Below are positions 1,235-42,586 of a DNA stretch of 42,599 bases, in pieces. Location of the stretch: the NCBI RefSeq assembly GCF_017377655.1, contig NZ_JAFREL010000091.1:1-42599 (forward strand), given 5' to 3'. This DNA comes from Candidatus Enterococcus ferrettii (lineage in GTDB: Bacteria > Bacillota > Bacilli > Lactobacillales > Enterococcaceae). The notes under the pieces were generated by a model. It saw only the letters and a list, made by a program, of their open reading frames with translations. It had not been told where the DNA came from and made no database searches. A program made the position numbers and the translations under genes. Position 1 is the stretch's first letter. Each line of letters begins with the position of its first letter.

Positions 1235-1249
1235 AAGGTGGAAATGAAC

Positions 1250-26753: not shown

Positions 26754-27794
26754 ATGTCCAATCTTATATTCAGTATTGTAGTTCCAATCTTTAATGTGGC
26801 ACGAACAATACACACAACAATTAGTTATCTAAAAGAATTAGATTTTGAAGATTATGAAGTGATCTTGATAAATGATGGTTCAACGGATGAAACAAAAGAA
26901 GTAGTTCAAAAATTAATTACGAATAAAAAGAATTTCAAACTATTTAATGCTACTAATGGCGGTCCAGGTGCTGCAAGAAATCTAGGAATAAAAAAATCTG
27001 TGGGCGAATATATACTTTTTTTTGATTCTGATGATTTTCCAGCAAAGAGTATTTTAAAAAAATACAAAAAAATACTTGATAATGATCCTAAAATAGATTT
27101 AATTATCAGCTCATTTTCTTTCACTACTAAAGTTAACAACCAAATAGTTTCAACTAAAGAGTATTTAGTTCCTAAAAAGTATTATCAAGACAGGAATAAA
27201 TTTTTGAACGATATTTATTCACTAATGAATCGTCAACTAATGTATGTTGTATGGAATAAATGCTATCGTAGAGATCTAATAGTAGAAAATGAAGTAACCT
27301 TTCCAAACTATAGAAGTTGTGAAGATCGAATATTTAATCTGAAATATTACAAATGTTGTGAACACGTTTGGCTAGATACTGAAATTGAATATTTTTATCA
27401 GTATGATGGAGGACAAGGAATAACAACCCAATATTTTCCGGATAAATTTAAATCCTTTAAGGAATTTTATGATTTGGCCAACATGGTGACGGAAAATAAT
27501 GCTAAAGCTGGTTTCGCTGCTTTATATCTTAAAGGTATAGTATCAACGGTGATGTCCATACTTAATACAAGTAAGCTATCAAAAAAACAAAAAATTAAAG
27601 AGATCAATTTAATTTTGAGTGATGAATCAGTTATGGAGGCTAAAGAAATTGCACTTACTGATACTAAAATAAAAATAATGACCAAAGCTATATTTAATGC
27701 TCACAGCATAATATTTATAAAATGTGTAAAGATGATTAATCTTATAGAGATTAATTCACCTAAATTGATGTCACACTTTAAAAGAACCTATTGA
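26754..27794 (+). CDS. GT2 glycosyltransferase
   Basis: This is a 346-residue GT-A enzyme with FSIVVPIFNV, LINDGSTDET, NGGPGAARNLG and the metal site FFDSDDF in the first 100 residues, followed by YVVWNKCYRRDL and an E-D-R-motif region SCEDRIFNLKYY typical of capsular or O-antigen GT2 enzymes. The C-terminal part is helical. Donor and acceptor cannot be told. It starts 12 bases after epaR with GAGGT upstream. From this gene on, AGA and ATA codons become frequent compared with the rml genes, the first sign of a different sequence origin. Confidence 0.85.
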   Translation: MSNLIFSIVVPIFNVARTIHTTISYLKELDFEDYEVILINDGSTDETKEVVQKLITNKKNFKLFNATNGGPGAARNLGIKKSVGEYILFFDSDDFPAKSILKKYKKILDNDPKIDLIISSFSFTTKVNNQIVSTKEYLVPKKYYQDRNKFLNDIYSLMNRQLMYVVWNKCYRRDLIVENEVTFPNYRSCEDRIFNLKYYKCCEHVWLDTEIEYFYQYDGGQGITTQYFPDKFKSFKEFYDLANMVTENNAKAGFAALYLKGIVSTVMSILNTSKLSKKQKIKEINLILSDESVMEAKEIALTDTKIKIMTKAIFNAHSIIFIKCVKMINLIEINSPKLMSHFKRTY

Positions 27795-27817
27795 CTATTT
27801 TTTTAATGGAGGAGTTT

Positions 27818-28903
27818 ATGGTTAAAAGAGTATTACACTTTCAAGGTAGAATGGGACTTGGAGGAGCTGAAACATTTATGATGAATCTTTACAGGAAAAT
27901 GGATAGAAGTAAAGTACAGTTTGATTTCCTAATTTATAAAGATTTTGTAAGTGTAAAAGATTACCATAAGGAAGTTGAAAAATTAGGAGGACGTATTTTT
28001 GTCGTAACGAATCCTAAAAAAAATATATTCAAGTATATGTTAGAAGTTAATAGGCTTTTAAAAGAAGAAAAAGTCGATATTGTTCACAATGAAGTTTATT
28101 TTGGTGGTGGTATTAATCTTTGGTTAGCTAAAATAAACGGAATAAGTAAAAGAATTGCTCATAGCCACGCTACTGAAGATGGTAAAGGTAACTCTTTTAT
28201 GACGAGGATCGTTAGAATGATTTTTAGAAAACTGCTTTTAGCAAATGCAACGGATCTTCTTGCGGTGAGTAATGAAGCCGGCGAAAGCCTTTTTGGTAAA
28301 AGAGAATATGTTATAGTTCACAACGGGATTGATCTTTCAAAATACGATAGTCCAGATAATGTAAGTAAAAAGAAAAAATTAAAAGAATTGGGTTTAGATA
28401 ATGATAGTTTTGTTATTGGAAATATAGGGAGACTGGAATCACAAAAGAATCAAGCGTTTTTAATTGATGTTTTCGTTGAAATACTTCGACTGAAAAAAAA
28501 TAGTAAATTGATAATTGTTGGTGAAGGATCTTTACGCCGTTCATTAGAAAAAAAAATTAACGATTATGGGTTGACAAATAGTGTTTTTTTGTTAGGTGAG
28601 AGAAACGATATACCGGAAATTCTCAATACTTTAGATGTTTTCGTAATGACATCTTTATATGAAGGATTGCCAATGGTAGGGATTGAAGCACAAGCGAGCC
28701 AAAAGAAATTAGTGCTTTCTAATAAAATTTCTAAAGAGACAGAATTGACATCTAATGTCACATTTTTGTCTCTGAACTCACCCTTTTCTGAGTGGGCAAG
28801 AGTAATTTGTTCTGAGCCCTTTGAGAACTGCTTTACCGATGCTCTAAAAAAGTATGATGTTGCATATACATTGGAACAGATGAAAAAAGTATATGATATA
28901 TAA
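27818..28903 (+). CDS. GT4 glycosyltransferase (EpsF-like)
   Basis: This is a 361-residue GT-B enzyme. The N-terminal domain starts VLHFQGRMGLGGAETFMMNLYR, a strong marker of the EpsF-like group. The C-terminal donor-binding domain has IGNIGRLESQKN, LIIVGEGSLR, VFLLGERNDIPEIL and the E-x7-E motif in YEGLPMVGIEAQ. The start is the ATG at 27818 with GGAGG 5 bases upstream. An in-frame TTG at 27791 overlaps the previous gene and has no ribosome site. It probably adds a hexose or HexNAc to the repeat unit; the sugar is unknown. Confidence 0.88.
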   Translation: MVKRVLHFQGRMGLGGAETFMMNLYRKMDRSKVQFDFLIYKDFVSVKDYHKEVEKLGGRIFVVTNPKKNIFKYMLEVNRLLKEEKVDIVHNEVYFGGGINLWLAKINGISKRIAHSHATEDGKGNSFMTRIVRMIFRKLLLANATDLLAVSNEAGESLFGKREYVIVHNGIDLSKYDSPDNVSKKKKLKELGLDNDSFVIGNIGRLESQKNQAFLIDVFVEILRLKKNSKLIIVGEGSLRRSLEKKINDYGLTNSVFLLGERNDIPEILNTLDVFVMTSLYEGLPMVGIEAQASQKKLVLSNKISKETELTSNVTFLSLNSPFSEWARVICSEPFENCFTDALKKYDVAYTLEQMKKVYDI

Positions 28904-28944: not shown

Positions 28945-30444
28945 ATGAATGATAAATTTTCAGCAAGGTTAGTGGAAACATTATTTGATAATAGTTATTT
29001 CAGGATTTTTAATCTAGTCGCATGTTTACTTTATTTTATACCAAGCAGTCTCGGAATTCCTGACATTGTTACTAAAATAGCAGTTGTTTATGGGGGACTG
29101 CTTGCTTTTAACAATTTTTTCATTAAAAGGGATTTTATGAAAATGAAATACTGGTATCTACTTTGTAGTGTTATGATCATATTTTGTATCACCACGTTGA
29201 TGAACTTCGAATACAATTTGATACAGAATTTTTACAATTTCATCTATTTAGTTATTACGTTTACAGTGGTCTTTCCGATCGCTAATACAAATTCCCCTAA
29301 AAAAATTATTAAAGATTTCTTATTGTTTAATAATGTGTTAGTGATTTTTGTTTTTTTAGCGACTTTGATATCACTTGTTCAATTTATTTTGCTATCAAAA
29401 TACCAAGTGCAGACAGCAAATCCTGATATATTGGCTCGTCAAGGCTTTTGGGAATCAAGGTTGTTTGGGGTTTATACAAGTCCTAATATTGGCTCTTTAT
29501 TTGGTTTTATTTCTGTAGCAATGAGTATAATAAATGTTTCATTCAAAACGCCGATATCCAAAAAACTAAAGACGTTGTATACGCTAAATTTCATTGTACA
29601 GTTGCTCTACTTTTTTCTATCTTCATCCAGAGGAACTCAAATATCAATTTCGGTATTCGTTCTTTTCTATTTATTTCTAAAAATTATTTATGTGAAAACC
29701 GCAAAGCATGTTAGGCCCAACGATAATAGGTTACTAAGGAATTCTATTATCATAGGGATAATATTGCTAACCCTTGTAAATTTGGGAGACGTTTATATAA
29801 AAAATGGACTCGGGCATGTTCCTATGATAGTTAAACAAGAAACTAATTTTATAAAAAAAATTGAGGAAAAGAACTATGAAGGTTCAATAGATTCAAAGGG
29901 AATAATTGATCAAAAGAATAAACAAGTGGTTATTGAACATTCTGGCGAAGGTGCTGAAGTTTCTTCGGGACGCTTTACAATATGGAAAGCAGCAATAAAA
30001 GCTTTTAAAGAGAAACCGATTTTAGGTTATGGGGATTTATCGTTTTACAGAAATAACCAGGTTCCACCTTTTGATGAAAAAAAAATCACAGAATTTGATA
30101 AAAGTGAGTTGACTCGCGCAAATGGGTATATGCATAATGGCTATTTACAAGTATTACTGTCTATTGGTGGAATTGGGTTCTTGTTAATTTTTATATTTTA
30201 TATATTGAATTTGAAAGATATCATCTTTACTTATTTTACTCATGTGGAGAAGTGGTACCCTGACAGCTTGTCAGCTGATACTATATTTTTGTTGTTATCC
30301 CTGCTAGTTTCTATTTTTGCAAATGAACTAGTTGAAGCACATATTCTATTTAACAATAGAGATGTGGTATCGATTGTTTTTTGGTATAGTTTAGGAGTAA
30401 TTTCTTTTTTTGTACCCGTTCAGAGAGGAATAAATAGAACATGA
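28945..30444 (+). CDS. Wzy-like polysaccharide polymerase
   Basis: This is a 499-residue integral membrane protein with about eleven or twelve helices. Landmarks are RLFGVYTSPNIGSLFGF, SSSRGTQISISV and an outer loop with SSGRFTIWKAAIKAFKEKPILGYG followed by YMHNGYLQVLLSIGGIGF. The R-G-T, G-R and H-N-x-Y-L motifs are those of the O-antigen ligase/polymerase superfamily. It would polymerise undecaprenyl-linked repeats on the outer face after flipping by the Wzx protein at 31501. GTGGGAG lies 6 bases before the ATG. Its end overlaps the next start by four bases (ATGA). Confidence 0.83.
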   Translation: MNDKFSARLVETLFDNSYFRIFNLVACLLYFIPSSLGIPDIVTKIAVVYGGLLAFNNFFIKRDFMKMKYWYLLCSVMIIFCITTLMNFEYNLIQNFYNFIYLVITFTVVFPIANTNSPKKIIKDFLLFNNVLVIFVFLATLISLVQFILLSKYQVQTANPDILARQGFWESRLFGVYTSPNIGSLFGFISVAMSIINVSFKTPISKKLKTLYTLNFIVQLLYFFLSSSRGTQISISVFVLFYLFLKIIYVKTAKHVRPNDNRLLRNSIIIGIILLTLVNLGDVYIKNGLGHVPMIVKQETNFIKKIEEKNYEGSIDSKGIIDQKNKQVVIEHSGEGAEVSSGRFTIWKAAIKAFKEKPILGYGDLSFYRNNQVPPFDEKKITEFDKSELTRANGYMHNGYLQVLLSIGGIGFLLIFIFYILNLKDIIFTYFTHVEKWYPDSLSADTIFLLLSLLVSIFANELVEAHILFNNRDVVSIVFWYSLGVISFFVPVQRGINRT

Positions 30445-31508
30445 TAGCTTTTGTTGCGTGGACACCGTTACATCTAATTAACGCCTTAAATGTCTATATG
30501 AATTATTATCCCACGGTCGAGGCAGACCTTTATATATATGATGAGTTTACTGACTCGCATAAATATTATAATAAAATTTCAGCCATGGGATTGTTTAAGA
30601 ACACTATACTTATTGATCATGATGACATCTCGAGTGGGATAAGTAAATATATTAATATATTGATTAGTAAAAATACTTTTACTGATCAGCGGAGGTTTGA
30701 ATATGAAGAATTGTTTGTTTATGGAGGAAATTATTTTTCTAAGGTATTGTTTAGCAACGCTCTCAAGGTAAATACCGGTCTCAAACTGAACTATATTGAA
30801 GATGGTATTGCTCCTTATCTTGATGGAAGAATATTTCCTACATCTCGGATTAATCGATTGGTGTATAATTGTTTTAATAAATATTCAATGTTGAAACAAG
30901 AAATAAATAAATACTTTGTTTATGAACCTGACTTAGTAAATTTTCCGATTCAAAATACTTTAAAGATGCCTAAAATTGAAAAATGTAACCCCGCATACAA
31001 ATATATTTTAGAGGTGTTTGACGATGTCCAAGAAGTAAAGAATATATTATTGTTTATTGATCAGCCATTGAATGATGATGGGTATGGTATTGATGAAGTA
31101 GAAATCGCTAAAAAAATTAATGCTGCAAACAAAACTAATAAAACATTCGTTATAAAAAAGCATCCCCGAAGTAAAAGAGTTTATGAAGGGTTTGAAATAC
31201 TTAAAAGTAATAGTCCATTTGAGATAATTGCATTACGTGGTCAATTTGAAAAAAGCATAATAATAAGTCCTGCTTCCACAATTGCTTTTTCTTCGTATAT
31301 GATGTTTGGTATTGAGTTTGAGACTATCTTGCTATCACAGCTCATATTGAATGAGTATGATGGATATGACAAAAAACATAGAGAAATATTTGGCGCACTC
31401 AGTTCTTTCACTGATAGATTTAATAGAGTTGCGGAGAATCAGATCTATTTACCGAATAATTTTGTAGAATTAGAAAAGAAATTAGGTGAGTTGAAATATA
31501 ATGGATAA
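30441..31508 (+). CDS. Candidate sialyl/legionaminyl transferase (GT52-like motifs)
   Basis: This is a 355-residue soluble protein without helices. It begins [16 protein letters not shown], as in capsule sialyltransferases that open with a TP-x-H motif. It contains E120-D121-G122 in [12 protein letters not shown]241-P242 in IKKHPRS and a Ser/Thr motif in SPAST (276-280). Bacterial sialyltransferases of several families share a D/E-D/E-G motif (catalytic base) and an HP motif (phosphate contact), so a CMP-nonulosonic acid transferase is proposed. The CMP-sugar genes downstream support this. The start overlaps the polymerase stop, and its own end overlaps the flippase gene by 8 bases. The exact CAZy family is not certain. 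Confidence 0.62.
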
Positions 31509-32925
31509 GCTTTTAAAAAAGCTCTTTTCTTCCAAACTAGTAAAATCTAGTTTTTGGTATACAATCGGAAATTTTTTTATTAAAGGAATTTCTTTTATAA
31601 CAATACCTATTTTTGTTAACATAACAACTCAAGCAGAATATGGGCTAATTAATAACTTTACTTCTTTTGTATCTATTTTTTCGATACTTGTTGGTTTAAG
31701 CTTAAATTCAGCGATAAATAATGCGAGTTTTGATTACAAAGAAAAAATTAATGAGTTCATGTCGTCAGTACTCTTTCTTTCAACTATATCGTTATGCTTA
31801 TTTTTATTGTTGGGAAATATTTACTTTCTTTTTTCAAATACCTTTTTTGATTTGAATCAAGTAGTTTTCAACTTGATGCTAATTCAAAGTTTTTCTACAT
31901 TCGTTATTTCTTATATCCAGGCATATTTTACAATAAATTTTAGTCATTTCAAGTTCCTAATTTTATCATTTGTATCCACAGTGATAAACGTTGTTTTTTC
32001 GGTATTACTTATGCTGACACTTTTTACTCAAAATAAATATATGGGCAGAGTAGTAGGAGGAACTATATCTTTTGTAATTATAGCTGCAGTTATTTATTGG
32101 ATAATAATGTTCAAGGGAAGGCATTTTATCGATAAAGGGTATTGGAAATACGCCTTGAGGATATCTATGCCGTTAATACCACATTCATTAGCTAATATAA
32201 TACTTTCGCAATTTGATCGGATTATGATTAACTCTTATTTGGGTCCTGCTGCTGGAGGTATTTACTCATACATCAGTAATATAGGAATAATTTTAAGTGT
32301 TGTTTGGGTATCTACAAATAATGCTTGGGTCCCATGGTTTTATGGGGAAATGAACAAAGAAAATTATTCGACTATAAAAAAAGTAAGTAATTATTATCTG
32401 GTGGCTTTTACTACGATAGCTATAATGGTAATGATTATTTCTGTAGACCTAGCGAGAATAATGGCTCCGGAAGAGTACTATTCTGGTTTAGCACTAGTTA
32501 TTCCTATTTCGTTAGGATACTTCTTTCAATTTTTATATAGTTTACCTGTAAATGCAGAGTTTTATGAAAAAAAGACGAATTTTATCGCTATAGGAACGGT
32601 TGCTAGTGCGTTAATAAATATAGGATTGAATGCACTTTTTATTCCTAAATATGGTATTATTGCTGCAGGCTACACAACGGTGTTTACTTATTTTTTATTG
32701 TTCATGTTCCACTACTTTATTGCTAAAAAGATCACTAGTCGACAATTATTTGATACGGTTAGAATTTGGAGTATTGTAATTTTCATGTTAGTGTTTTCTG
32801 CGGTTTTACACATTTTTATTGACTATGTCATCATACGATATATTTTATTATTTGGAATTTTGGGTATATTAGTTTGGTATTTTTTCAAAAACAAAAATAG
32901 AATAATGAATGAATTCAATTCTTAA
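31501..32925 (+). CDS. Wzx-type flippase (MOP/PST superfamily)
   Basis: This is a 474-residue membrane protein with about 12-14 helices and very little hydrophilic sequence. It starts with an amphipathic region then [21 protein letters not shown], and contains [24 protein letters not shown] and [16 protein letters not shown], typical of PST-family flippases. It would move the lipid-linked repeat to the outer face for the Wzy-like protein at 28945. This is a second export route besides the ABC pair at 17845-19876. AGGTGAG lies 10 bases before the ATG. The next gene's ribosome site overlaps this stop. Confidence 0.88.
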
Positions 32926-32938
32926 GGAGAAGGTAAGT

Positions 32939-33943
32939 TTGTTTGAAAACAAGACTATTTTAGTTACTGGTGGTACGGGCTCCATTGGCAGTGAAATTGT
33001 AAGACAGTTATTAAAAGAAAAACCTAAGGCAATCCGTATTTTTAGTAGAGGTGAAGAAAAGCAATTTTACATGCAACAAGAACTTTCCAAACATTCTAAC
33101 ATTCGTTTTCTTATTGGTGATGTCAGAGATTATCGCAGGGTGGAGTATGCTTGCAAAGATGTGGATATTATTTTCCACGCCGCAGCAATGAAACATGTTC
33201 CTGCCAGTGAATATAATCCAATGGAAGCTGTAAAGACTAATGTAATGGGAACTCAGAATGTAATAGAGGCAGCTATCATTAACGATGTTGAGAAGTTTGT
33301 TGCAGTTAGCACAGATAAAGTGGTTGGTCCTACAAATACTATGGGTGCTACAAAATTGTTAAGTGAAAAAATAGTAATGGCTGCTAATCAATATAAAGGA
33401 AATACAAAAACTCAATTTTCTTGTGTTAGGTTTGGAAATGTTATGGGCTCAAGCGGATCTGTTATCCCTTTGTTTTGCAAACAGATAGAAAATAATACGG
33501 ACATAACTATCACTGATATTGAGATGACGAGATTTATGATGTCAATACCTCAAGCAGCCAAATTAGTTCTTTCAGCAGCTAAAAACTCAATGTATGGAGA
33601 GACATATGTTCTCAAAATGCCAGCAATAAGAATACTAGATTTAGCCGAAGCATTAATCACTAAGTTCAATCATACGCATGTAGAGAAATACGATGGAAAA
33701 TTAAAAGTAATTGGTCCTCGACCGGGTGAAAAACTGTACGAGGAACTCATGTCGAACGATGAAATCGAAAGATCTTATGAAAATGATAAAATGTATATTA
33801 TTCCTCCTATTTATTATTGTGAGGAGGACTATAAACATCTAGAGCATATTAAGATTACCTCTTATTCGTCCGATGACACTTCTCTTATGACACAGAATGA
33901 ATTTTTAGATATAGTCAAGAAATATAATGTAATATCTTGGTAG
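32939..33943 (+). CDS. legB: UDP-GlcNAc 4,6-dehydratase, short CapD/PglF type (LegB-like)
   Basis: This is a 334-residue NAD-dependent extended SDR that would convert UDP-GlcNAc to its 4-keto-6-deoxy form. The N-terminus has VTGGTGSIGSEIV, followed by GDVRDYRR, HAAAMKHVPASEYNP, T125-D126-K127 in VSTDK, and M135-x3-K139 (MGATK). Met at the usual Tyr position is, to my knowledge, the mark of PglF/WbpM-type retaining dehydratases, whereas the C5-inverting PseB keeps Tyr. That favours legionaminic acid or bacillosamine over pseudaminic acid. The start is a TTG at 32939 with AAGGAG 10 bases upstream. An in-frame ATG at 32909 would overlap the flippase gene without a clear site. Confidence 0.82.
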   Translation: MFENKTILVTGGTGSIGSEIVRQLLKEKPKAIRIFSRGEEKQFYMQQELSKHSNIRFLIGDVRDYRRVEYACKDVDIIFHAAAMKHVPASEYNPMEAVKTNVMGTQNVIEAAIINDVEKFVAVSTDKVVGPTNTMGATKLLSEKIVMAANQYKGNTKTQFSCVRFGNVMGSSGSVIPLFCKQIENNTDITITDIEMTRFMMSIPQAAKLVLSAAKNSMYGETYVLKMPAIRILDLAEALITKFNHTHVEKYDGKLKVIGPRPGEKLYEELMSNDEIERSYENDKMYIIPPIYYCEEDYKHLEHIKITSYSSDDTSLMTQNEFLDIVKKYNVISW

Positions 33944-33957
33944 GAGGTCATTTGTAA

Positions 33958-34965
33958 ATGCACGAGAAATCAGTTTATATTATTGCGGAGATTGGTGTTA
34001 ATCACAATGGAAGTCTTAAACTGGCATTAAAAAGTATTGACGCTGCAAAAGTGGCGGGAGCAGATGCCGTAAAGTTTCAAACTTTTAAGACGGATAGATT
34101 GACTACGAGAAAAGCTGAAATGGCCACTTATCAAAGGGCTAATACAAAAAAAGATGAATCTCAATATGATATGTTGAGTAGATTAGAGTTATCAGAGTCA
34201 GATTTCAAAGAAATTAAGGACTATTGCGATAAGTTAGGAATAGGTTTTCTTTCGACCCCTTTTGATGCCGAAAGTGCTTCTTTCTTAAAGAAAATTGGGA
34301 TTAACGGATTTAAAATAGGATCAGGTGATTTAAATAATTTACCTTTTCTGAGAAAACTAGATATGTACGGTTTGCCCATATTATTATCAACCGGGATGTC
34401 AACTTTAGAGGAAGTAATTGAAGCTACAAAGTGTTTTATCAACAGCCCGATCACTATTCTGCATTGTACTTCAAATTATCCAGCGGATTTAGAAGATATT
34501 AATTTAATGGCTATGAACACAATGAGAGACACTATAGGATTACCTATTGGCTACTCGGATCATTCTTTAGGCTATGATGTTGCGATATGTGCAGTGGCAA
34601 TGGGAGCAAAAGTAATTGAGAAACATTTTACTCTAGATAAAAAATTGCCAGGGCCTGACCACAAAGCTTCACTAGATCCTGTTGAATTTAGTGAGTTCAC
34701 TCACCACATACGTAATACTGAATTATTTTTAGGAGATGGAATAAAACGTCCAATGCCTTCAGAAAAAAATACAAGAAAAGTTGCTAGAAAAAGTGTTGTA
34801 TTAATAGAGGATATTGAATCGGGAAATATAATTACTGAAAAGGATATAGGTATAAAAAGACCTGGAACAGGAATTCCTCCAAAATATTATTATGAAGTGA
34901 TCGGGAAAAAAGCAACTAGAAATCTTTCAAAAGATGATGTTCTGAAGGAAGAAGATATAGAATGA
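33958..34965 (+). CDS. legI: NeuB-family nonulosonic acid synthase (legionaminic acid synthase candidate)
   Basis: This enzyme condenses phosphoenolpyruvate with a 6-carbon amino sugar to make a 9-carbon acid. Its 335 residues have the NeuB TIM barrel (IAEIGVNHNGSL, AVKFQTFKTDRL, STPFD, KIGSGDLNN, LSTGMST, HCTSNYPA, GYSDHS, EKHFTLD, GPDHKASL) and a C-terminal SAF antifreeze-like domain from about 275 (ARKSVVLIEDIESG, KRPGTGI). AGGAGGT overlaps the upstream stop, 9 bases before the ATG. LegI, NeuB and PseI cannot be separated reliably by eye. The gene set around it points to 2,4-diacetamido-2,4,6-trideoxymannose as substrate. Confidence 0.9.
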   Translation: MHEKSVYIIAEIGVNHNGSLKLALKSIDAAKVAGADAVKFQTFKTDRLTTRKAEMATYQRANTKKDESQYDMLSRLELSESDFKEIKDYCDKLGIGFLSTPFDAESASFLKKIGINGFKIGSGDLNNLPFLRKLDMYGLPILLSTGMSTLEEVIEATKCFINSPITILHCTSNYPADLEDINLMAMNTMRDTIGLPIGYSDHSLGYDVAICAVAMGAKVIEKHFTLDKKLPGPDHKASLDPVEFSEFTHHIRNTELFLGDGIKRPMPSEKNTRKVARKSVVLIEDIESGNIITEKDIGIKRPGTGIPPKYYYEVIGKKATRNLSKDDVLKEEDIE

Positions 34966-36110
34966 ATAAAATAATTATTGTTAGTGGTACAAGAGCTGAT
35001 TATGGTATATTTATTCCGGTAGCGAAACTATTAAGTATAAATAATTGGGACGTTTCTTTTGCTGTATCAGGAATGCATCTTAGCCATAAGTTTGGTTATA
35101 CTAAGCAAATTATAGAAAATGACGGATTTCGTATATGTGGAGAAGTCCAAAGTATTTTTCTAGAAAATTCTAAAGGTAATATGGCTCGATCAGTAAGTTT
35201 AGAGATATCAGGTTTTACTAACATTTTTGAAAAGGAAAAACCAGATTTCATTTTATTATTAGGTGATCGTGGTGAAATGCTTGCAGCGGCAATTTCGGCA
35301 ATGTATTTAGGAATAAAAACTGGTCATATACACGGCGGAGAAGTATCGGGGACAGTGGACGAATCTATTAGACATGCTATCTCAAAGCTATCCTCTATAC
35401 ATTTTACTTCGACTGAAAAGAGTTCCGATCGATTATTGAAAATGGGTGAAGATAATTGGCGCATATTTCGAGTAGGAGCCCCGAGATTAGATTCAATTAT
35501 ACATTCAAACCTTCCAGATTTTGAGAGTATTAATAAAAAATATGGTTGGAACTTGGTTGAGAAAGAATATATACTACAGTTATTTCACCCAGTGGTAACT
35601 GAATTGGCTGAAATCAGATATCAAGTTATGGAACTGATTTCAAGCATAAAAAAAACAGAATTACCAGTTCTGTGTATTTTACCTAATGCCGATGCTGGTG
35701 GAGATATTATTAGAAGTGAGTACAAAAAATGGAAAGGCCACGCTGTATTTTTTTCCAGTAACTTAGATCCAGATGAATATCTTCGAATACTGAAAGAGTG
35801 TTTATTCATGATAGGGAATTCATCTTCTGGAATTATTGAAGCTGCTTCTTATAATGTTCCTGTAGTAAATTTGGGAAGTAGGCAAGCGGGTCGGGAGCAA
35901 TCTGAAAACACCATTAATTCTGAGTTTATTCAGAAAGATATTGATACAGCAATACAGACGGTGTTGTCTGAAAAATTTCAGTGTAAAATTAGAAATTCAC
36001 CCAATGTTTATGGAGACGGAACAGCTTCTGATCATATTGTAAAAGTATTGAATAATATCTCGAAGGATAAGGATTTAAAAAGATGGATTCAAAAGCAAAT
36101 AGCCTATTAA
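34962..36110 (+). CDS. legG: Hydrolysing UDP-sugar 2-epimerase (NeuC/LegG-like)
   Basis: This GT-B-fold enzyme both epimerises C2 and releases UDP, giving a free mannose-type amino sugar for the synthase. Its 382 residues show SGTRADYGIFIPVAK at the start, LLGDRGEMLA, HIHGGEVSGTVDESIRHA, RVGAPRLD and IGNSSSGIIEA, all characteristic. Hydrolysing behaviour is expected from the NeuC-like group; pseudaminic acid loci use an unrelated hydrolase (PseG) instead, so this gene argues against pseudaminic acid. Its start overlaps the synthase stop by four bases (ATGA). Its end overlaps the acetyltransferase gene by 28 bases. Confidence 0.9.
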   Translation: MNKIIIVSGTRADYGIFIPVAKLLSINNWDVSFAVSGMHLSHKFGYTKQIIENDGFRICGEVQSIFLENSKGNMARSVSLEISGFTNIFEKEKPDFILLLGDRGEMLAAAISAMYLGIKTGHIHGGEVSGTVDESIRHAISKLSSIHFTSTEKSSDRLLKMGEDNWRIFRVGAPRLDSIIHSNLPDFESINKKYGWNLVEKEYILQLFHPVVTELAEIRYQVMELISSIKKTELPVLCILPNADAGGDIIRSEYKKWKGHAVFFSSNLDPDEYLRILKECLFMIGNSSSGIIEAASYNVPVVNLGSRQAGREQSENTINSEFIQKDIDTAIQTVLSEKFQCKIRNSPNVYGDGTASDHIVKVLNNISKDKDLKRWIQKQIAY

Positions 36111-36763
36111 CAGATGAAAATGATATCCCATATATATTAATTGGAGCTGGGGGACACGCTAAAGTTATAGTGGACATTCTCAATGAAGAAAAAAAGAAAA
36201 TTGCTGGTTTTTTCGACGATAATAAAAGTGATTTTGAAAATCTGGAATACTTGGGAACAACAGACGATTTGTTAGAAAAAAAAGCAGAGTACACAGGTCA
36301 ATACTACTTTATCATAGCAATTGGAAGCTGCTCTCGGAGAAAAGCTATATATATAAAAGTAAATTTGACAGACGATTGCTATGGCACAGCAATCCATCCC
36401 AAATCCTATATCTCTAAAAATATTAAAATTGCTGAGGGAACAGTTGTTATGGCAAATGTAGTTGTAAATAGTAGTACAACTATTGGAAAACATTCAATTT
36501 TAAATAGTGGTTCAGTGATTGAGCATGATAATGACATAGGAGATTTCGTCCATATTTCACCTGGGTGTAATTTAGCCGGTGAAACATCAGTTGGTGAAGG
36601 TACGCATATAGGTATTGGTACAAATTGCATTCAACAAATTAATATAGGTAGTTGGTGCAATGTTGGCGCAGGAAGTGTAATTTTAAAAGATATTCCAGAT
36701 AATACTTTATCTTATGGGGTGCCTGCTAAAATAAGGAAAGAAGGAATTAACTGTGAACTCTAG
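36083..36763 (+). CDS. legH: NeuD/PglD-family sugar acetyltransferase (LegH-like)
   Basis: This is a 226-residue acyl-CoA-dependent N-acetyltransferase. The N-terminal Rossmann-like part binds the UDP-sugar (PYILIGAGGHAKVIVDIL). The C-terminal part is a left-handed beta-helix with hexapeptide repeats (IGKHSI, IGDFVH, VGEGTH, IGSWCN). The catalytic-type His is in SVIEHDNDIG, as in PglD. In the proposed pathway it acetylates the 4-amino group made by the downstream aminotransferase. NeuD in true sialic acid loci O-acetylates instead, so this is the alternative. AAGGAT lies 8 bases before the ATG, within the end of the 2-epimerase gene. Confidence 0.85.
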   Translation: MDSKANSLLTDENDIPYILIGAGGHAKVIVDILNEEKKKIAGFFDDNKSDFENLEYLGTTDDLLEKKAEYTGQYYFIIAIGSCSRRKAIYIKVNLTDDCYGTAIHPKSYISKNIKIAEGTVVMANVVVNSSTTIGKHSILNSGSVIEHDNDIGDFVHISPGCNLAGETSVGEGTHIGIGTNCIQQINIGSWCNVGAGSVILKDIPDNTLSYGVPAKIRKEGINCEL

Positions 36764-37895
36764 GATTCTATTATCAAGCCCACATATGGGTGAAAATGAA
36801 CAAAAATATGTTAAGCAAGCTTTTGATGATAACTGGATTGCTCCACTAGGTGAAAATGTTGATAAATTTGAGGAAAGTATTGCTGAATATGTAGGATCAG
36901 AAGGTAGTGCTGCTGCTTTAAGTTCAGGGACAGCTGCGATTCACCTTGCTCTAAAAATACTAAATGTAGGTAGAGGTGATGTTGTCTTTGCACCTACGTT
37001 TACATTTATTGCTTCTGTCAACCCCATTCTATATCAAGGTGCTAGACCAGTATTTATTGACTCAGAACCCGATACTTGGAACATGAGTCCACGAGCTTTA
37101 GAAAAAGCATTGATGGATGCCGAAAGAAATAACCAGCTACCTAAAGCAGTTATTGTAGTAAATTTGTACGGCCAGATGGCAAAATATGATGAAATTATTG
37201 CATTAACGAATAAGTACAATATTCCAATTATTGAAGATGCTGCAGAGTCCTTAGGATCGACTTATAAGGGGAAGCAATCGGGAACCTTTGGGGACATTGG
37301 TATATTTTCTTTTAATGGGAATAAAATTATTACTACTTCTGGAGGTGGAGCACTTGTTTCTTCAGACCAATCATTTGTTAATAAATCTAGGTTTTTAGCT
37401 ACACAAGCTAGAGACGACGCTCCTTATTATCAACATAGTGAGATAGGGTATAATTACCGTTTGAGTAACGTTTCTGCTGGTATTGGACGTGGTCAAATGG
37501 AAGTATTGCCGATACGTGTGGAAAAGAGAAAATCAATCTTTGAACAATATAAAAAAGAATTTTCTACAGTATTGTCTGTAGATATGATGCCTGAGATTGA
37601 AGGAATGTCTCCAAATAGATGGTTATCTACATTAACATTAAGCAATATTACTGATATAGGCGAAATCGTAGATATTATTAAACAATTCAACGAAAAAAAT
37701 ATCGAAACGAGAGCGTTATGGAAACCGCTACATCTCCAGCCTTTATTTTCAGGGACACTTGTCTATTTTCATGATGATAATTCTAGTGTTTCAGAGAAGT
37801 TATTTAACTCTGGTTTGTGTCTTCCATCAGGTAGTAATATGAGTAGCGAACAACAAGAATATGTGATTAGAGAATTCAAAAAGATAATTAGTTAG
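36753..37895 (+). CDS. legC: DegT/DnrJ/EryC1 family sugar aminotransferase (LegC/PglE-like)
   Basis: This PLP-dependent enzyme would aminate C4 of the 4-keto-6-deoxy UDP-sugar. Its 380 residues include SSPHMGENEQKYV, ALSSGTAAIHLAL, PTFTFIAS, VNLYGQMA, EDAAESLGSTY and the PLP lysine K191 in FSFNGNKI, followed by TTSGGGALV. The opening and SFNGNKI block match the LegC/PglE/PseC-like group. The start is a GTG at 36753 with AAGGA 7 bases upstream, overlapping the acetyltransferase stop by 11 bases. It is placed after rather than before the acetyltransferase gene in the operon, but acts before it in the pathway. Confidence 0.88.
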   Translation: MNSRILLSSPHMGENEQKYVKQAFDDNWIAPLGENVDKFEESIAEYVGSEGSAAALSSGTAAIHLALKILNVGRGDVVFAPTFTFIASVNPILYQGARPVFIDSEPDTWNMSPRALEKALMDAERNNQLPKAVIVVNLYGQMAKYDEIIALTNKYNIPIIEDAAESLGSTYKGKQSGTFGDIGIFSFNGNKIITTSGGGALVSSDQSFVNKSRFLATQARDDAPYYQHSEIGYNYRLSNVSAGIGRGQMEVLPIRVEKRKSIFEQYKKEFSTVLSVDMMPEIEGMSPNRWLSTLTLSNITDIGEIVDIIKQFNEKNIETRALWKPLHLQPLFSGTLVYFHDDNSSVSEKLFNSGLCLPSGSNMSSEQQEYVIREFKKIIS

Positions 37896-37906
37896 AGGGG
37901 CCATAT

Positions 37907-38887
37907 ATGAGAATAGGTATTATTGGATTAGGTTCCATGGGAAAAAGAAGACTGAGATTAATTCAGGATAACTTTTCTGAAAAAATTGTCTGTGGTATTG
38001 ATACCAACTTAAGTCGCAGACAAGAAGTGAATGCTGAATACAATATTACTGTGTTTGAAAATTTAGAGGAAGCTAAAGAAAAGTTTGATATTGATTCAGT
38101 TTTTGTATGTACTTCTCCGGCTACACACGAGACCATAATTATTCAAGCTTTAAATTTGGATTGCCACGTTTTTACAGAAATCAATTTGATGAATAGTTAT
38201 TATGAAAAGATTACTGATCTCTCAAAAAAACTAAAAAAAGTACTATATTTATCATCTACTTTTTTAAAGCGAGAAGAGATTAACTATATAAAAGCCAGAT
38301 TGAAAAATAAAAATAACTATATTTATCGGTATCACGTGGGGCAATATCTGCCTGATTGGCATCCATGGGAAAACTATCAAGATTTTTTTGTTTCTAATAA
38401 ACTTACTAACGGCTGTAGAGAATTACTCGCAATAGAATTTCCGTGGATTACTGAAACTTTTAGTGACATTGAAAAAGTGGAAAGCTATTCAAGGAGTATT
38501 AGTAATCTCCAACTAGATTTTCCGGATACTTATAGTTTATTATTAAGACATTCAAACGGAGTGATAGGTACCATTACCGTAGACATTGTTTCTAGGACTG
38601 CTAAGAGAGATCTAACGATAATAAGTGAAGAGGACCAAATTGAATGGGGTGGAAATCCTAATAATTTGTTAGCGTGGGATATGAATAGTAGTACAATGAA
38701 AAAAATTGAATTGTACAAAGAAATACAACACGATGATAATTACTCCCATACAATAATAGAAGATGCATATTTAGAAGAAATCAGAGAGTTTTTTGATGTT
38801 GTCTCTGGAGATACGATTAGTGAGTATACCTTTGAAAAAGACGATAAAATAATAAATTTGATAAATCAGATTGAAGGGTTAGCATAA
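37907..38887 (+). CDS. Gfo/Idh/MocA-like protein with degenerate catalytic motifs
   Basis: This 326-residue protein has a good nucleotide-binding start (IGIIGLGSMGKRR) but lacks the EKP motif. The aligned position reads E91-I-N (VFTEINLM), so the usual catalytic Lys is missing. The second-domain GGxxxDxGxH motif is also replaced (GCRELLAIEFPW, 169-180). It carries YLPDW at 147-151, shared with the next gene. It may be a non-catalytic partner in a heterodimer, or may act on an unusual substrate. It lies within the nonulosonic acid operon, 11 bases after the aminotransferase, and couples to the next gene through TAATG. Campylobacter ptm loci also carry an oxidoreductase of this kind, as I remember. 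Confidence 0.78.
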   Translation: MRIGIIGLGSMGKRRLRLIQDNFSEKIVCGIDTNLSRRQEVNAEYNITVFENLEEAKEKFDIDSVFVCTSPATHETIIIQALNLDCHVFTEINLMNSYYEKITDLSKKLKKVLYLSSTFLKREEINYIKARLKNKNNYIYRYHVGQYLPDWHPWENYQDFFVSNKLTNGCRELLAIEFPWITETFSDIEKVESYSRSISNLQLDFPDTYSLLLRHSNGVIGTITVDIVSRTAKRDLTIISEEDQIEWGGNPNNLLAWDMNSSTMKKIELYKEIQHDDNYSHTIIEDAYLEEIREFFDVVSGDTISEYTFEKDDKIINLINQIEGLA

Positions 38888-39798
38888 TGAAGATTATTTT
38901 TTTCGGGTTAGGATCAATAGGTAAAAGACATTTAGAAAATCTTAGGGCATACGGTAAGAAAAATGATCTGAAATTAGATATTACTTCTTTCAAGAATACA
39001 GAATTACAAACTTCTGAAGAATTAATTGACATGAAGTATATAAGGTCGTTTTCTGAATTGGAGAAAGAGTATGATGTTGCATTTATTACTAATCCAACGT
39101 ATAAGCATAAAGAAACTCTTGATGTTATTGCGAAAAAAACTAAACACATATTTTTGGAAAAACCAGCCTTTATTAGATCAGAAAAAATAGAGGAGATTGG
39201 TATAGAGTATAGTAATGTATATGTTGCTGCACCGTTAAGATACAAAAAAATCATGAAATATATTAAGTCTATAATACCTGATATGCATATTTTTTCCGTA
39301 GAGGTTATCTGTTCAACCTATTTACCCGACTGGAGAAGTGGAGATTATCGAAAGCAGTACTCTGCTTTAAAAAAAATGGGTGGAGGAGTTGAATTAGACT
39401 GTATTCATGAAATAGATTATGTAGCTAATCTTTTTGGCTTTCCTGACAAAGTGATTAAATATATGGGGAAATATTCTGATCTAGAATTGGACAGCAATGA
39501 TCTCGCTCTATACATTTTCATCTATTCAAATAAATTAATCAATATCCATCTGGATTACTTCGGAAAAAATCCTAAAAGAAAACTAAAACTTTATACTAAC
39601 GAAGGGAATATTGAAGTAGATTTTTTAGCAAATAAAGTTTTTAAGAATAGTCGGATTTTTGCAACTTTTGAAGAAGATTCTAATCAAATGTATGTTGAAG
39701 AATTAAATTATTTTATGGATGTTGTTATTAACGACAAGGAAAACTGGAATGACTTGAGGTATGCAAACAAGGTGCTTGAATTGGCAGAGGAGAAATAA
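38887..39798 (+). CDS. Gfo/Idh/MocA family oxidoreductase (PtmF-like candidate)
   Basis: This is a 303-residue NAD(P)-binding protein with IIFFGLGSIGKRH, an intact EKP at 91-93 (IFLEKPAF), and GGGVELDCIHEID (165-177) containing the catalytic-type His174. YLPDW is at 145-149, as in the upstream paralogue. It therefore looks catalytically competent. Position between the aminotransferase and the CMP transferase suggests a role in making or modifying the nonulosonic acid, for example an amidino, lactyl or deoxy change, or a precursor step like that proposed for PtmF in Campylobacter. The reaction is unknown. Both ends overlap neighbours by one base (TAATG), so translation is tightly coupled. Confidence 0.8.
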   Translation: MKIIFFGLGSIGKRHLENLRAYGKKNDLKLDITSFKNTELQTSEELIDMKYIRSFSELEKEYDVAFITNPTYKHKETLDVIAKKTKHIFLEKPAFIRSEKIEEIGIEYSNVYVAAPLRYKKIMKYIKSIIPDMHIFSVEVICSTYLPDWRSGDYRKQYSALKKMGGGVELDCIHEIDYVANLFGFPDKVIKYMGKYSDLELDSNDLALYIFIYSNKLINIHLDYFGKNPKRKLKLYTNEGNIEVDFLANKVFKNSRIFATFEEDSNQMYVEELNYFMDVVINDKENWNDLRYANKVLELAEEK

Positions 39799-40538
39799 TG
39801 AATATTCTATTCACAATATGCGGAAGAGCTGGATCAAAAGGTTTGGCGAATAAGAACTTAAAAAAGTTAGCAAATAAACCTTTGGTAGGGTACGCATTAT
39901 CTTTAATAAATTTATTTGGTGAGGCAAATCCTGCTGTTAACTACGAGATAGGATTAAATACTGATAGCGAAGCTTTGATAAATTTGGTTGAATCTATAAA
40001 CGAAAATGTTAAATTAGTTCAACGAAAGCCAGAGTTAGCCACAGATGTTGTAGGAAAGATAGAAGTAATTAGAGATACTTTTATTAACCTAAGTGAGAAC
40101 AAAGATTCCTATGATTTTATCATTGATCTTGATATAACGTCACCACTGAGAACGTTATGTGATTTAGAAAACTTAGTTTATTCTCATTCTAATAATCAAG
40201 ATAAAGATGTATATTTTTCTGTAGTACCTTCTAGGAGAAATCCTTATTTTAACATGGTAAAAGAAGTAGGAGATAAAGTATCAATAGTAAATAAATCTAC
40301 ATTTACTGCAAGACAACAAGCACCTAGAGTTTTTGATATGAATGCTTCAATGTATTCATTCAAACCAGATTTTCTTCTAAATAGTCATTACATATTTAGT
40401 GGTGAAGTAGGCATGATACAAATGAAAGATTACTTGATACTGGACATTGATAGCGAAGAAGATTTTGAATGGTTAAATTTTTTATTCCCAAAATTTTTAG
40501 AGGATTCTCATGAATTATTAAAAGTTTATAAAAATTGA
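39798..40538 (+). CDS. legF: CMP-nonulosonic acid cytidylyltransferase (NeuA/LegF/PtmB-like)
   Basis: This enzyme transfers CMP from CTP to the 9-carbon acid, giving the activated donor. Its 246 residues have the nucleotide loop CGRAGSKGLANKN near 8-20, LVGYAL, GLNTDSE, RKPELATD, the metal-site DLDITSPLR and ARQQAPRVFDMNASMY. The last block matches the substrate-binding region of the CMP-sugar synthetase family. It starts on the stop of the upstream oxidoreductase (TAATG). It is the final step of the block that begins at 32939, and its product would be used by the candidate transferase at 30441. Confidence 0.9.
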   Translation: MNILFTICGRAGSKGLANKNLKKLANKPLVGYALSLINLFGEANPAVNYEIGLNTDSEALINLVESINENVKLVQRKPELATDVVGKIEVIRDTFINLSENKDSYDFIIDLDITSPLRTLCDLENLVYSHSNNQDKDVYFSVVPSRRNPYFNMVKEVGDKVSIVNKSTFTARQQAPRVFDMNASMYSFKPDFLLNSHYIFSGEVGMIQMKDYLILDIDSEEDFEWLNFLFPKFLEDSHELLKVYKN

Positions 40539-40558
40539 GTTAGGAAAGTGGGTTGTAA

Positions 40559-41512
40559 ATGGGAAAGTATTTAATTACTGGTGGGGCTGGTTTTATAGGG
40601 TCAACTTTGGCTAATTACGTGTCGAAGCAAAATGAAGTTATCATTATTGATGATCTTTCGATGGGAAAACTAGAAAATTTATCATTAGGTGAGACTACTG
40701 TTTTTATTGAGGGATCTGTTACTGACCAAACTTTATTAGAAAAAGTTCTTTCTGAAAATGAATTCGACTACATTTTCCATTTAGCTGCTGTAGCAAGTGT
40801 TGCGGATTCTGTTAAGCGCCCGTTAGAGACTCATGAGGTGAATTTCGAGAGTGTTTTGATGCTTCTTGAATTAACACGTAAGTACCAAGGGAACCTTAAG
40901 CGGTTAGTATTTAGTTCTTCAGCGGCTGTTTATGGAGATGAGCCTACCTTGCCCAAAAAAGAGGAATCGGTTATTCGACCTTTAACTCCTTATGCTGTTG
41001 ATAAGTTTGCTGCGGAACAATATGTGCTGAATTACAACCATTTATATGGTATTCCTACAAGTGCAGTTCGTTTTTTTAACGTTTATGGACCAAATCAAAA
41101 TCCTGAATCTCCATACAGTGGCGTGATCTCTATTTTAATTGATCGGTATAAAAAACTTCTTTCTGGTGAGAATGTTAATTTTACATTATTTGGGGATGGT
41201 TCTCAATCTCGAGATTTTGTTTTCATAGATGATGTGATTCAAGCATTATTGCTAGTAGCTAATGAGGTAAGCGCAATTGGTACACAATTTAATGTAGGTA
41301 CCGGAAAATCAATTGCTTTAAATAAGTTAATAAATACTATTGATAAAGAATTAGACTTAAAGTTACCTATTGATTATGGTAATGAACGTATTGGTGATAT
41401 TAAAGACTCTGTAGCAGATATTTCTCGATTGAAGGAACTAAATTATAAACCGCAAAACGGAATACAAGACGGAGTAAAAAAATATTTGATATCTAAAGGA
41501 TTATGTACTTAA
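40559..41512 (+). CDS. NAD-dependent sugar-nucleotide epimerase (GalE/WbpP-like)
   Basis: This is a 317-residue extended SDR. The N-terminus [18 protein letters not shown] binds NAD. HLAAVASVADS, FSSSAAVYGD and Y-x3-K in PYAVDKFAAEQY give the catalytic triad, and RFFNVYGPNQNPESPYSGVI and DGSQSRDFVFIDDV are typical of 4-epimerases. It probably interconverts UDP-Glc/UDP-Gal or UDP-GlcNAc/UDP-GalNAc for the repeat unit. A dehydratase is less likely. It follows the CMP transferase by 20 bases with AGGAAAG upstream. The substrate cannot be fixed from the sequence. Confidence 0.82.
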   Translation: MGKYLITGGAGFIGSTLANYVSKQNEVIIIDDLSMGKLENLSLGETTVFIEGSVTDQTLLEKVLSENEFDYIFHLAAVASVADSVKRPLETHEVNFESVLMLLELTRKYQGNLKRLVFSSSAAVYGDEPTLPKKEESVIRPLTPYAVDKFAAEQYVLNYNHLYGIPTSAVRFFNVYGPNQNPESPYSGVISILIDRYKKLLSGENVNFTLFGDGSQSRDFVFIDDVIQALLLVANEVSAIGTQFNVGTGKSIALNKLINTIDKELDLKLPIDYGNERIGDIKDSVADISRLKELNYKPQNGIQDGVKKYLISKGLCT

Positions 41513-41557
41513 ATTACAATCGTTTTATACTTAAAGAGCTACTTAGGAGGAACTTAG

Positions 41558-42586
41558 GTGGAATCGAAGACGGCGAAACTAAAAGAAAGAAATTACAGTA
41601 TAGATTATGTGAAATTAGTAGCTTGTATTTCGGTGATAGCTGTACATTTTCGACTCAACTTGATTGAGTTAATCCCTTTAGATACTTTTGGTCCCACAAC
41701 TTCGTTTTCATTGGCTGTTATCTATCAATTTTTTATAACTTGTGTTCCACTATTTTTAATATCTACCGGTTTTTTGACTTATGGGAAAAGTTATAGTATT
41801 AGCTACTACAAAAGAATAATGAAATTTTTCAGTCTATACGTATTATGTTCTTTGGTGACGTATTTTGTGATGAATCGATATTTTGGTAAAGTGCTTCCAA
41901 TTTTGGATATTGTAAAGGCTATTGAGTTTTATAATTTGATTCCTTATTCTTGGTATATTGAGATGTATTTAGGATTCGCATTGATAATTCCGTTTTTAGG
42001 TCTGTTAATGGAAAGAGTAGATAAGAATGAGGCATTCTATTTTCTTGTAACATTACTATTCCTTGTAAGTTTACCTTTGCTGATTAACAGCAATCCTAAA
42101 CTGAATTCCTATATTCATTTACCAGCATCTTGGACTAGCCTATTTCCTTTCGTATATTATGTTATTGGTGCTATTATTAAAAAGTATTATCAGGAAATAA
42201 AGCTAAAATCCAGTCAAGTTACATTCTTAATGGGGATCTATTTCTTAGTTATTATGCTTGGGATATACATAAATTATATCAACGCGACACCAATGGTTGG
42301 TGGGGCTGAAGGCGGATACGGGTCTCTAATAATTGTAGTGCAATCTACTTCATTGTTTCTATTGATATCTCATTTTTTTAAAAGTAAAAATAGTTTTGTA
42401 GCCCATATTTCAAAACTAACTCTACCTATTTACTTAATGTCATACCTAGTGGATCAGATTGTTTATCGTCTTTTTATAAATCTTCTAGGCAATCCTAAAA
42501 GTCTCTTTTTTTTTCTTTATTCCTATAGTTATATGTGTCTTTATACTGAGTGTATTATTTGCATTCACTCTAAACTATATAAATGA
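41558..42586 (+). CDS. Acyltransferase 3 family membrane protein, 3' end frameshifted at a T9 run
   Basis: This is a polytopic membrane O-acyltransferase with about nine helices in the readable part (RNYSIDYVKLVACISVIAVHF at the start, SWYIEMYLGFALIIPFLGLL in the middle). It begins with GTG; AGGAGG is 7 bases upstream. As read, the frame ends at 42586 after an unlikely hydrophilic tail (CLYTECIICIHSKLYK). A run of nine T at 42506-42514 precedes this tail. With eight T the frame becomes FFFFIPIVICVFILSVLFAF, a normal final helix, and stays open to the window end. So the gene is either slipped off, phase-variable or miscalled at the run. Its likely role is O-acetylation of the polysaccharide. 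Confidence 0.75.
   Translation: MESKTAKLKERNYSIDYVKLVACISVIAVHFRLNLIELIPLDTFGPTTSFSLAVIYQFFITCVPLFLISTGFLTYGKSYSISYYKRIMKFFSLYVLCSLVTYFVMNRYFGKVLPILDIVKAIEFYNLIPYSWYIEMYLGFALIIPFLGLLMERVDKNEAFYFLVTLLFLVSLPLLINSNPKLNSYIHLPASWTSLFPFVYYVIGAIIKKYYQEIKLKSSQVTFLMGIYFLVIMLGIYINYINATPMVGGAEGGYGSLIIVVQSTSLFLLISHFFKSKNSFVAHISKLTLPIYLMSYLVDQIVYRLFINLLGNPKSLFFFLYSYSYMCLYTECIICIHSKLYK
42506..42514 (+). repeat. Homopolymer T9 tract inside the acyltransferase gene
   Basis: Nine consecutive T occupy three Phe codons. The downstream reading frame fits the protein family only if the tract is 8 (or 11) long. Tracts of this kind are prone to slipped-strand change and also to sequencing error. Confidence 0.8.

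Follow-up and report, generated by a model that had tools for sequence, protein, structure and literature searches.

The window—the whole 42,599-nt stretch analyzed here, contig NZ_JAFREL010000091.1 of Candidatus Enterococcus ferrettii, from an assembly of 5.4 Mb in 157 contigs—carries at 32909–40538 an operon that probably makes a legionaminic-family nonulosonic acid, activated with cytidine monophosphate (CMP), which a likely transferase of its own would attach to the decoration of an Epa-like surface polymer. Eight open reading frames (ORFs), all open and on one strand, comprise six pathway genes and two genes of the Gfo/Idh fold, here called GfoA and GfoB. Intergenic gaps range only from −28 to +14 nt, which argues for a single transcription unit. 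The genes, their families and order, the slot they occupy, their conservation, and the predicted fold are direct observations. In gene order, with uridine diphosphate as UDP and N-acetylglucosamine as GlcNAc, the operon contains:

32909–33943, + strand: UDP-GlcNAc 4,6-dehydratase of the short FlaA1/CapD family (STDKVVGPTNTMGATK), by motif, PF02719 (377 bits), and PDB 6bwc (318 bits)
33958–34965, + strand: NeuB/LegI-type nonulosonic acid synthase, by TIGR03569 (450 bits) and a SAF domain
34962–36110, + strand: hydrolyzing NDP-sugar 2-epimerase of NeuC/LegG type, by TIGR03568 (417 bits) and PDB 4zht and 5xvs/5zlr
36083–36763, + strand: NeuD/PglD-type left-handed β-helix N-acetyltransferase in the putative LegH role, by TIGR03570 (217 bits), PglD_N, and Hexapep
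36753–37895, + strand: DegT-type aminotransferase, LegC/PglE-like, by TIGR04181 as best model and PDB 1o61/4ztc
37907–38887, + strand: GfoA, a Gfo/Idh fold without the canonical catalytic residues, by E-[IL]-N in place of EKP and an AlphaFold2 model
38887–39798, + strand: GfoB, a canonical Gfo/Idh oxidoreductase, PtmF-like, by EKP and PDB 6o15 (YjhC)
39798–40538, + strand: LegF-like CMP-nonulosonic acid cytidylyltransferase (LFTICGRAGSKG), by PF02348, a motif in relatives, and a tree

A first-pass annotation of this DNA had read six of these genes as covering every step to a CMP-nonulosonic acid, and the family matches and open frames bear it out. It had placed the dehydratase start at 32939; the ORF begins with ATG at 32909, 30 nt before that in-frame TTG. 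Orthologous runs with the same gene order occur in genomes G019, G034, and G521 (in G019 without the two Gfo genes), so the gene set is no chance assembly. The individual reactions are what we infer from the families: The dehydratase, aminotransferase, and acetyltransferase would convert UDP-GlcNAc to UDP-diacetyl-bacillosamine, from which the hydrolyzing epimerase, the phosphoenolpyruvate-condensing synthase, and the CMP transferase would form a CMP-activated 5,7-diamino-3,5,7,9-tetradeoxy-nonulosonic acid.

Three enzymes pass the cut-offs of their NCBIfam models: the synthase for NeuB (450 bits; cut-off 400), the epimerase for NeuC (417; cut-off 236), and the acetyltransferase for NeuD (217; cut-off 161). 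The closest PDB sequences to the aminotransferase are 1o61 and 4ztc (337 and 334 bits), with 2fn6 at just 100 bits; we take the former to be Campylobacter jejuni PglE and the latter Helicobacter pylori PseC. All the parts of a legionaminic acid route—dehydratase, LegC/PglE-type aminotransferase, β-helix acetyltransferase, hydrolyzing epimerase, NeuB-family synthase, and CMP transferase—thus lie in one locus. Their families and order, together with the tree of the cytidylyltransferase, favor a legionaminic-family (5,7-diamino) acid made by a UDP-linked route.

Several matches weigh against this assignment. The best model of the aminotransferase, LegC TIGR04181, scores 374 bits, under its cut-off of 420; the best models of the dehydratase and the CMP transferase are PseB (351; cut-off 408) and PseF (70; cut-off 206). 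The top PDB chain for the epimerase is 4zht, a UDP-GlcNAc 2-epimerase/N-acetylmannosamine kinase (192 bits), slightly ahead of 5xvs/5zlr, guanosine diphosphate (GDP)/UDP-diacetylbacillosamine 2-epimerases (187 bits). The solved structure nearest to the dehydratase is 6bwc, presumably Pen, an enzyme needing the partner Pal.

The first-pass annotation had taken Met in place of Tyr (MGATK) as the mark of a retaining enzyme. That argument fails: CapE, WbjB, and PseB add a C5 epimerase step and share the motif T-x9-M/Y-x3-K, and CapE, which carries Met, also epimerizes C5 (PMC7439481), so Met is not diagnostic. The same article describes Pen as paired with Pal, and Bacillus subtilis SpsM, with the same Met motif, as starting a UDP-route legionaminic acid pathway (PMC7439481; Dubois 2020). 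The dehydratase sequence by itself cannot separate retaining from inverting enzymes, and therefore the downstream enzymes decide the type of acid.

In a tree of 29 rows, a subset of the sequences available, rooted on Escherichia coli KdsB, the CMP transferase falls in a Gfo-linked group (91/83) that also holds its counterpart from a Rhizobium LegB/LegC operon; E. coli K1 NeuA and the NeuA proteins from loci L012 and L013 branch elsewhere. It is predicted to be of LegF rather than NeuA type, a label drawn from the LegB/LegC neighbors of L074, L022, and L052 in a tree free of experimentally named LegF; in the two related loci checked, L022 and L052, LegB and LegC exceed their NCBIfam cut-offs. 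Synthase trees of 27 and of 42 rows, the latter leaving out L006 and L007, and an epimerase tree of 24 rows place the Enterococcaceae proteins in well-supported lineages of their own, apart from the clade of the N-acetylneuraminic acid (Neu5Ac) type and un-nested among rows from legionaminic acid loci; in the 27-row tree the three groups simply meet. Because these lineages stand separate, the synthase and epimerase trees prove no substrate, which limits the case for legionaminic acid. Clustering with Neu5Ac enzymes, which would have spoken against the initial proposal, is thus not seen for the CMP transferase, and the synthase is placed in neither the Neu5Ac-type clade nor the legionaminic-locus group.

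A pattern scan for cytidylyltransferase-like ORFs caught 47 and missed some (L038, for example). Four are of the IPARSGSKG kind—those of L012 and L013, plus one second copy each from L029 and L037—and 41 of the other 43 start with LFTIC. The second copies (L029:6657-7424 and L037:2574-3356) lie beside a cytidylyltransferase of the other kind in the same cluster, as if these two clusters made two CMP-nonulosonates.

The setting of the operon suggests where the sugar may go. Enterococcal Epa loci contain rmlABCD, rhamnan glycosyltransferases, an ATP-binding cassette exporter, a second initiating transferase, and variable decoration genes. The DNA upstream of the operon encodes an rmlABCD-type gene set, additional glycosyltransferases, and an exporter of Wzm/Wzt type, in agreement with the epa-like setting proposed at the outset; the likeness is one of gene content rather than of sequence to a named epa gene. 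The genes around the operon, including a short-chain dehydrogenase/reductase (SDR), are:

25350–26741, + strand: initiating sugar-phosphate transferase (PF02397), the conserved left flank of the slot
26754–28903, + strand: two glycosyltransferases of the variable unit (26754–27794 and 27791–28903)
28945–30444, + strand: Wzy-like polymerase (PF04932)
30441–31508, + strand: likely CMP-nonulosonic acid transferase, polysialyltransferase-like GT-B, by structure matches
31501–32925, + strand: Wzx-like flippase (PF01943)
40559–41512, + strand: GalE-like SDR, the right flank of the slot, probably outside the sugar pathway

Among 20 genomes of the genus, its own included, the glycosyltransferase at 23064 is present in 18, the initiating transferase at 25350 in 17, and the CMP transferase of the operon in two, the other carrier being G019. 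Three genomes with no pathway in the slot (G005, G001, and G010) hold different genes between the initiating transferase and the SDR, and all three carry SDR copies 73–75% identical to that of the window (for G005 the stretch compared misses most of the initiating transferase). Since other genes fill this stretch elsewhere, the operon is, on gene order, the occupant of a variable decoration slot in an Epa-like locus, with the SDR as its right flank. The SDR was set aside as a further pathway gene, as it flanks the slot in three genomes without the pathway there.

The transferase at 30441–31508 has no Pfam match of its own. Its predicted model has the GT-B sialyltransferase fold, and because its best matches among Foldseek's best 1000 chains are polysialyl- and sialyltransferase structures, it probably transfers the nonulosonic acid. 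With E values up to 10 allowed, PF07388 matched 17 of the 26 family members, the window protein not among them, and it is precomputed for 11 of 25 homologues; NCBIfam models matched none of the 26. Against this substrate, alignment of the family with E. coli K1 NeuS by hhalign gave a probability of 0.8% over 46 columns around KHP, no convincing match. The substrate of the transferase and the final location of the sugar follow from the proposed scheme, in which this enzyme would add the acid to a repeat unit begun by the initiating transferase at 25350, Wzx would flip and Wzy polymerize that unit, and the polymer would decorate the Epa rhamnan.

Locus L013 (6000-19000) carries neuA-neuB-neuD-neuC without an aminotransferase, and nearby it has relatives of the window's Wzx (58%) and of its polysialyltransferase-like enzyme (36%); export genes similar to those of the window thus appear combined with a Neu5Ac-type set.

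Other products were weighed against the same evidence. A pseudaminic acid set would comprise PseC, PseH/GNAT, PseG, PseI, and PseF, and the operon holds a different one: The PseC model scores 242 bits on the aminotransferase (cut-off 423.5) and PseI 279 on the synthase (cut-off 340), PseF is likewise below cut-off, the epimerase is of NeuC type, and the acetyltransferase is of NeuD/PglD type, so pseudaminic acid is an unlikely product. The first-pass annotation had drawn this in part from the NeuC-like epimerase; that argument, NeuC type and not PseG, holds, joined by the PglE/LegC-like aminotransferase and a β-helix rather than GNAT acetyltransferase. Pseudaminic acid could still arise if the Pen-like dehydratase worked with the SDR at 40559–41512 as a Pen/Pal pair; the dehydratase is indeed nearest to 6bwc, and the Pal chain 6bwl gives 130 bits with the SDR. 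Other epimerases score higher with the SDR (up to 213 bits), however, and it is present without the pathway; none of the ten ORFs scanned at 32909–42586 encodes a PseG-like or GNAT protein; we regard this route as very improbable.

Plain Neu5Ac would require NeuB, NeuC, and NeuA without a dehydratase or aminotransferase. In contrast to L012 and L013, both are interleaved in the operon, where they would have no use, which disfavors this product. The operon might instead be split between two products, with the dehydratase, aminotransferase, and acetyltransferase supplying UDP-diacetylbacillosamine to the initiating transferase, and NeuC, NeuB, and the CMP transferase making Neu5Ac. The 4zht match of NeuC, the pass of NeuB against the NeuB model, and the synthase tree are compatible with such a split, but the genes alternate within one operon (dehydratase, NeuB, NeuC, NeuD, aminotransferase), the initiating transferase is found in 17 of the 20 genus genomes against two for the CMP transferase, and the latter groups with the enzyme of a LegB/LegC operon and not with NeuA. 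This division of labor is improbable beside a single legionaminic-family product.

The Gfo genes set the operon apart from a bare legionaminic acid pathway. GfoA and GfoB are paralogues (24% identity, E 3e-15). A canonical Gfo/Idh/MocA oxidoreductase is defined by the catalytic Lys of EKP and an Asp/His pair. GfoB keeps EKP, GGG, D171, and H174 in all 43 aligned rows (the window, L011, and 41 of 43 loci, with L028 and L055 under the score filter). In GfoA, E-[IL]-N replaces EKP in 37 of 37 aligned rows and in all of the best 120 of 7384 homologues, and the Asp and His positions hold Leu, Phe, or Met and a gap in the 14 of 37 rows that align with YjhC (14/14). GfoA retains the GLGSMG motif, and across the same best 120 keeps N168 (118), G169 (105, else Ala), R171 (119), E172 (120), E177 (119), P179 (120), and W180 (120). 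Its AlphaFold2 model, from 38 sequences, is a confident Gfo/Idh fold (predicted local distance difference test score 93) with WlbA as best Foldseek match. Such strong conservation without the usual catalytic residues suggests that GfoA function has changed rather than been lost. The first-pass annotation counted two oxidoreductases; of these only GfoB has the canonical catalytic residues, GfoA lacking the Lys, Asp, and His. Of the initial interpretation as a whole, the full route, the legionaminic rather than pseudaminic type, and the Epa-like locus survive, and the Met argument does not.

The pair travels with the CMP transferase. Among 43 named loci gathered by CMP-transferase similarity, which vary in length and in some cases end inside the cluster, GfoB was detected in 43, GfoA in 35, NeuB in 37, NeuC in 36, and the aminotransferase in 26. 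GfoA lies no more than 300 nt from GfoB in 35 of 35, and the same limit holds between GfoB and the CMP transferase in 38 of 43. Searches with GfoA matched 3 of 398 and 3 of 98 genomes, its own counted in each; in four other genomes found this way GfoB adjoins GfoA every time, and the fetched stretch holds NeuB and NeuC in three (not L070) and the CMP transferase in three (not L069). Three plasmid records carry GfoA, and none was found in phages. Nine of 10 plasmid records with a GfoB relative have a CMP-transferase relative beside it, the Halorussus record having none; on a Legionella plasmid the CMP transferase is present but GfoB has no match. GfoA and GfoB are thus an accessory pair kept with this LegF-like CMP transferase subfamily. 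G019 lacks GfoA elsewhere in its genome at E 1e-20, GfoB having been sought in its locus alone. G+C content is 29–31% in GfoA, GfoB, and the CMP transferase and 34–36% in the five preceding genes, which fits separate acquisition of this three-gene unit.

Outside Firmicutes the partner of GfoB differs: L038 and L052 carry an SDR before GfoB, that of L052 scoring 160 bits against the PtmA model (cut-off 350). A Rhizobium WL3 plasmid has the order LegB-LegC-NeuC-NeuB-acetyltransferase-nucleotidyltransferase-Gfo-CMP-SDR, and the LegB-to-PtmA order of Plesiomonas equals it, with the PtmF "oxidoreductase" beside LegF (PMC4481668, Table 5). In C. jejuni, cj1330 lies between cj1329 and ptmB in cj1329-cj1330-ptmB-ptmA (PMC7245135). 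Since these orders agree, GfoB resembles PtmF in its position, and GfoA takes the place that PtmA has elsewhere; for Campylobacter and Plesiomonas the comparison is of gene position, not of sequence.

Two roles for the pair carry about equal weight, neither more than tentative. GfoB and GfoA may tailor the nonulosonate or its CMP form by a transient, isomer-changing oxidation, with GfoB catalyzing and GfoA providing a substrate or partner site. Likeness to YjhC and RgNanOx and the oxidoreductases beside Acinetobacter legionaminic acid genes favor tailoring. The best PDB sequence match of GfoB is YjhC 6o15 (E 1e-8; IHExD common to both), at only 23% identity over 214 columns, a distance that tempers the comparison. 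The YjhC homologue RgNanOx is proposed to oxidize C4 of sialic acid (PMC7535918), and in Acinetobacter extra oxidoreductases beside legionaminic acid genes are linked to 8-epilegionaminic, acinetaminic, and 8-epiacinetaminic acids (PMC9676051, PMC5595891, PMC4345345).

The pair may instead act upstream in amino-sugar precursor supply, as PtmA, together with PtmF, is thought to do in Campylobacter-type operons. GfoB aligns with the Rhizobium WL3 Gfo (24% identity, E 1e-31) and is syntenic with PtmF through that gene, C. jejuni cj1330, and Plesiomonas PtmF beside LegF, and PtmA is assigned to the GDP-GlcNAc segment rather than to nonulosonate tailoring (PMC4481668). Yet a PtmE-like L022 protein finds only partial matches of 23–35% identity in the genome of the window, and in the G019 locus the pathway genes stand without a Gfo pair. 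With no TIGR04180 LegB in the operon and no clear PtmE in the genome, a GDP segment is not evident. A bolder and rather unlikely extension of tailoring is that emptied GfoA and active GfoB form an obligate pair that alters (CMP-)legionaminic acid in its stereochemistry; the sugar of Enterococcus and many Clostridia would then be an epimer, and that of G019-like strains plain legionaminic acid; to our knowledge such an epimer has not yet been reported from Gram-positive bacteria.

B. subtilis SpsG is PseG-like and SpsD GNAT-like, where the window has a NeuC-type epimerase and a NeuD/PglD-type acetyltransferase, as well as the Gfo pair. The B. subtilis spore sps route is otherwise alike in being Gram-positive, with a T-x9-M-x3-K dehydratase, UDP intermediates, and a NeuB-family synthase (PMC7439481). 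The Campylobacter/Plesiomonas GDP-route operon (legB-C-H-I-G-F, ptmE, ptmF, ptmA) shares LegC-, LegH-, LegG-, LegI-, and LegF-like genes and an oxidoreductase gene beside the CMP transferase; the window operon lacks TIGR04180 LegB and PtmE and has GfoA in place of the SDR PtmA. The Acinetobacter ela/aci modules for 8-epilegionaminic and acinetaminic acid likewise join a legionaminic acid pathway to adjoining extra oxidoreductases, but AciB and AciE are SDR proteins (PMC9676051, PMC5595891); the comparison covers these two rather than the ElaA-C families. YjhC/NanY and RgNanOx resemble GfoB in Gfo fold, EKP, and IHExD (as compared for YjhC rather than RgNanOx); they are catabolic, distant from GfoB at the identity given above, and GfoA has neither motif. 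Excerpts of the open-licence literature on Gfo/Idh proteins in legionaminic acid pathways yielded no description of a GfoA-like protein.

Legionaminic acid has been described in a heteropolysaccharide of E. faecium TX16 (Kodali 2015, via PMC12413058 and PMC13317340), a likeness at the level of the sugar in an enterococcal surface glycan rather than of its genes; a GfoA relative exists in E. faecium as a species. Legionaminic acid on an Enterococcus is thus already known; what is new is a UDP-route legionaminic-type operon that joins a polysialyltransferase-like enzyme to a Gfo partner emptied of its catalytic residues yet conserved. GfoA relatives in named E. avium, E. faecium, E. mundtii, E. 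devriesei, E. hulanensis, and E. malodoratus records suggest similar loci in these species. If the proposed scheme is right, the Epa polymer of several Enterococcus species would optionally be decorated with a sugar resembling host sialic acid, which has a likely transferase of its own. A natural comparison for the role of the widespread PtmF-type oxidoreductase and of its emptied partner is that of G000, the genome of the window, whose locus has the Gfo genes, with G019, whose locus has none.

One E. faecium cluster of GfoA, with 1060 member sequences (P0072), is represented by a partial protein of 255 residues that lacks the nicotinamide adenine dinucleotide-binding start; its shortness may reflect a contig edge or a real truncation. 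A full-length E. faecium relative is also on record (P0004). L028 DNA (Succinivibrio) gave no match to E. coli genomes. At window positions 1238–2251, outside the sugar operon, lies a further Gfo/Idh protein with EKP. The legionaminic acid operons of L038 and L052 have an added formyltransferase-like gene (best NCBIfam models below cut-off in L052) and a deacetylase-like gene with an HPDDE motif, which we take to be of LmbE/PIG-L type, between epimerase and nucleotidyltransferase, suggesting that they make an N-formylated legionaminic acid. L043 and L051 hold GfoB and a LegF-like gene with no NeuB in the stretch, and in both a similar 254-aa protein adjoins the LegF-like gene.

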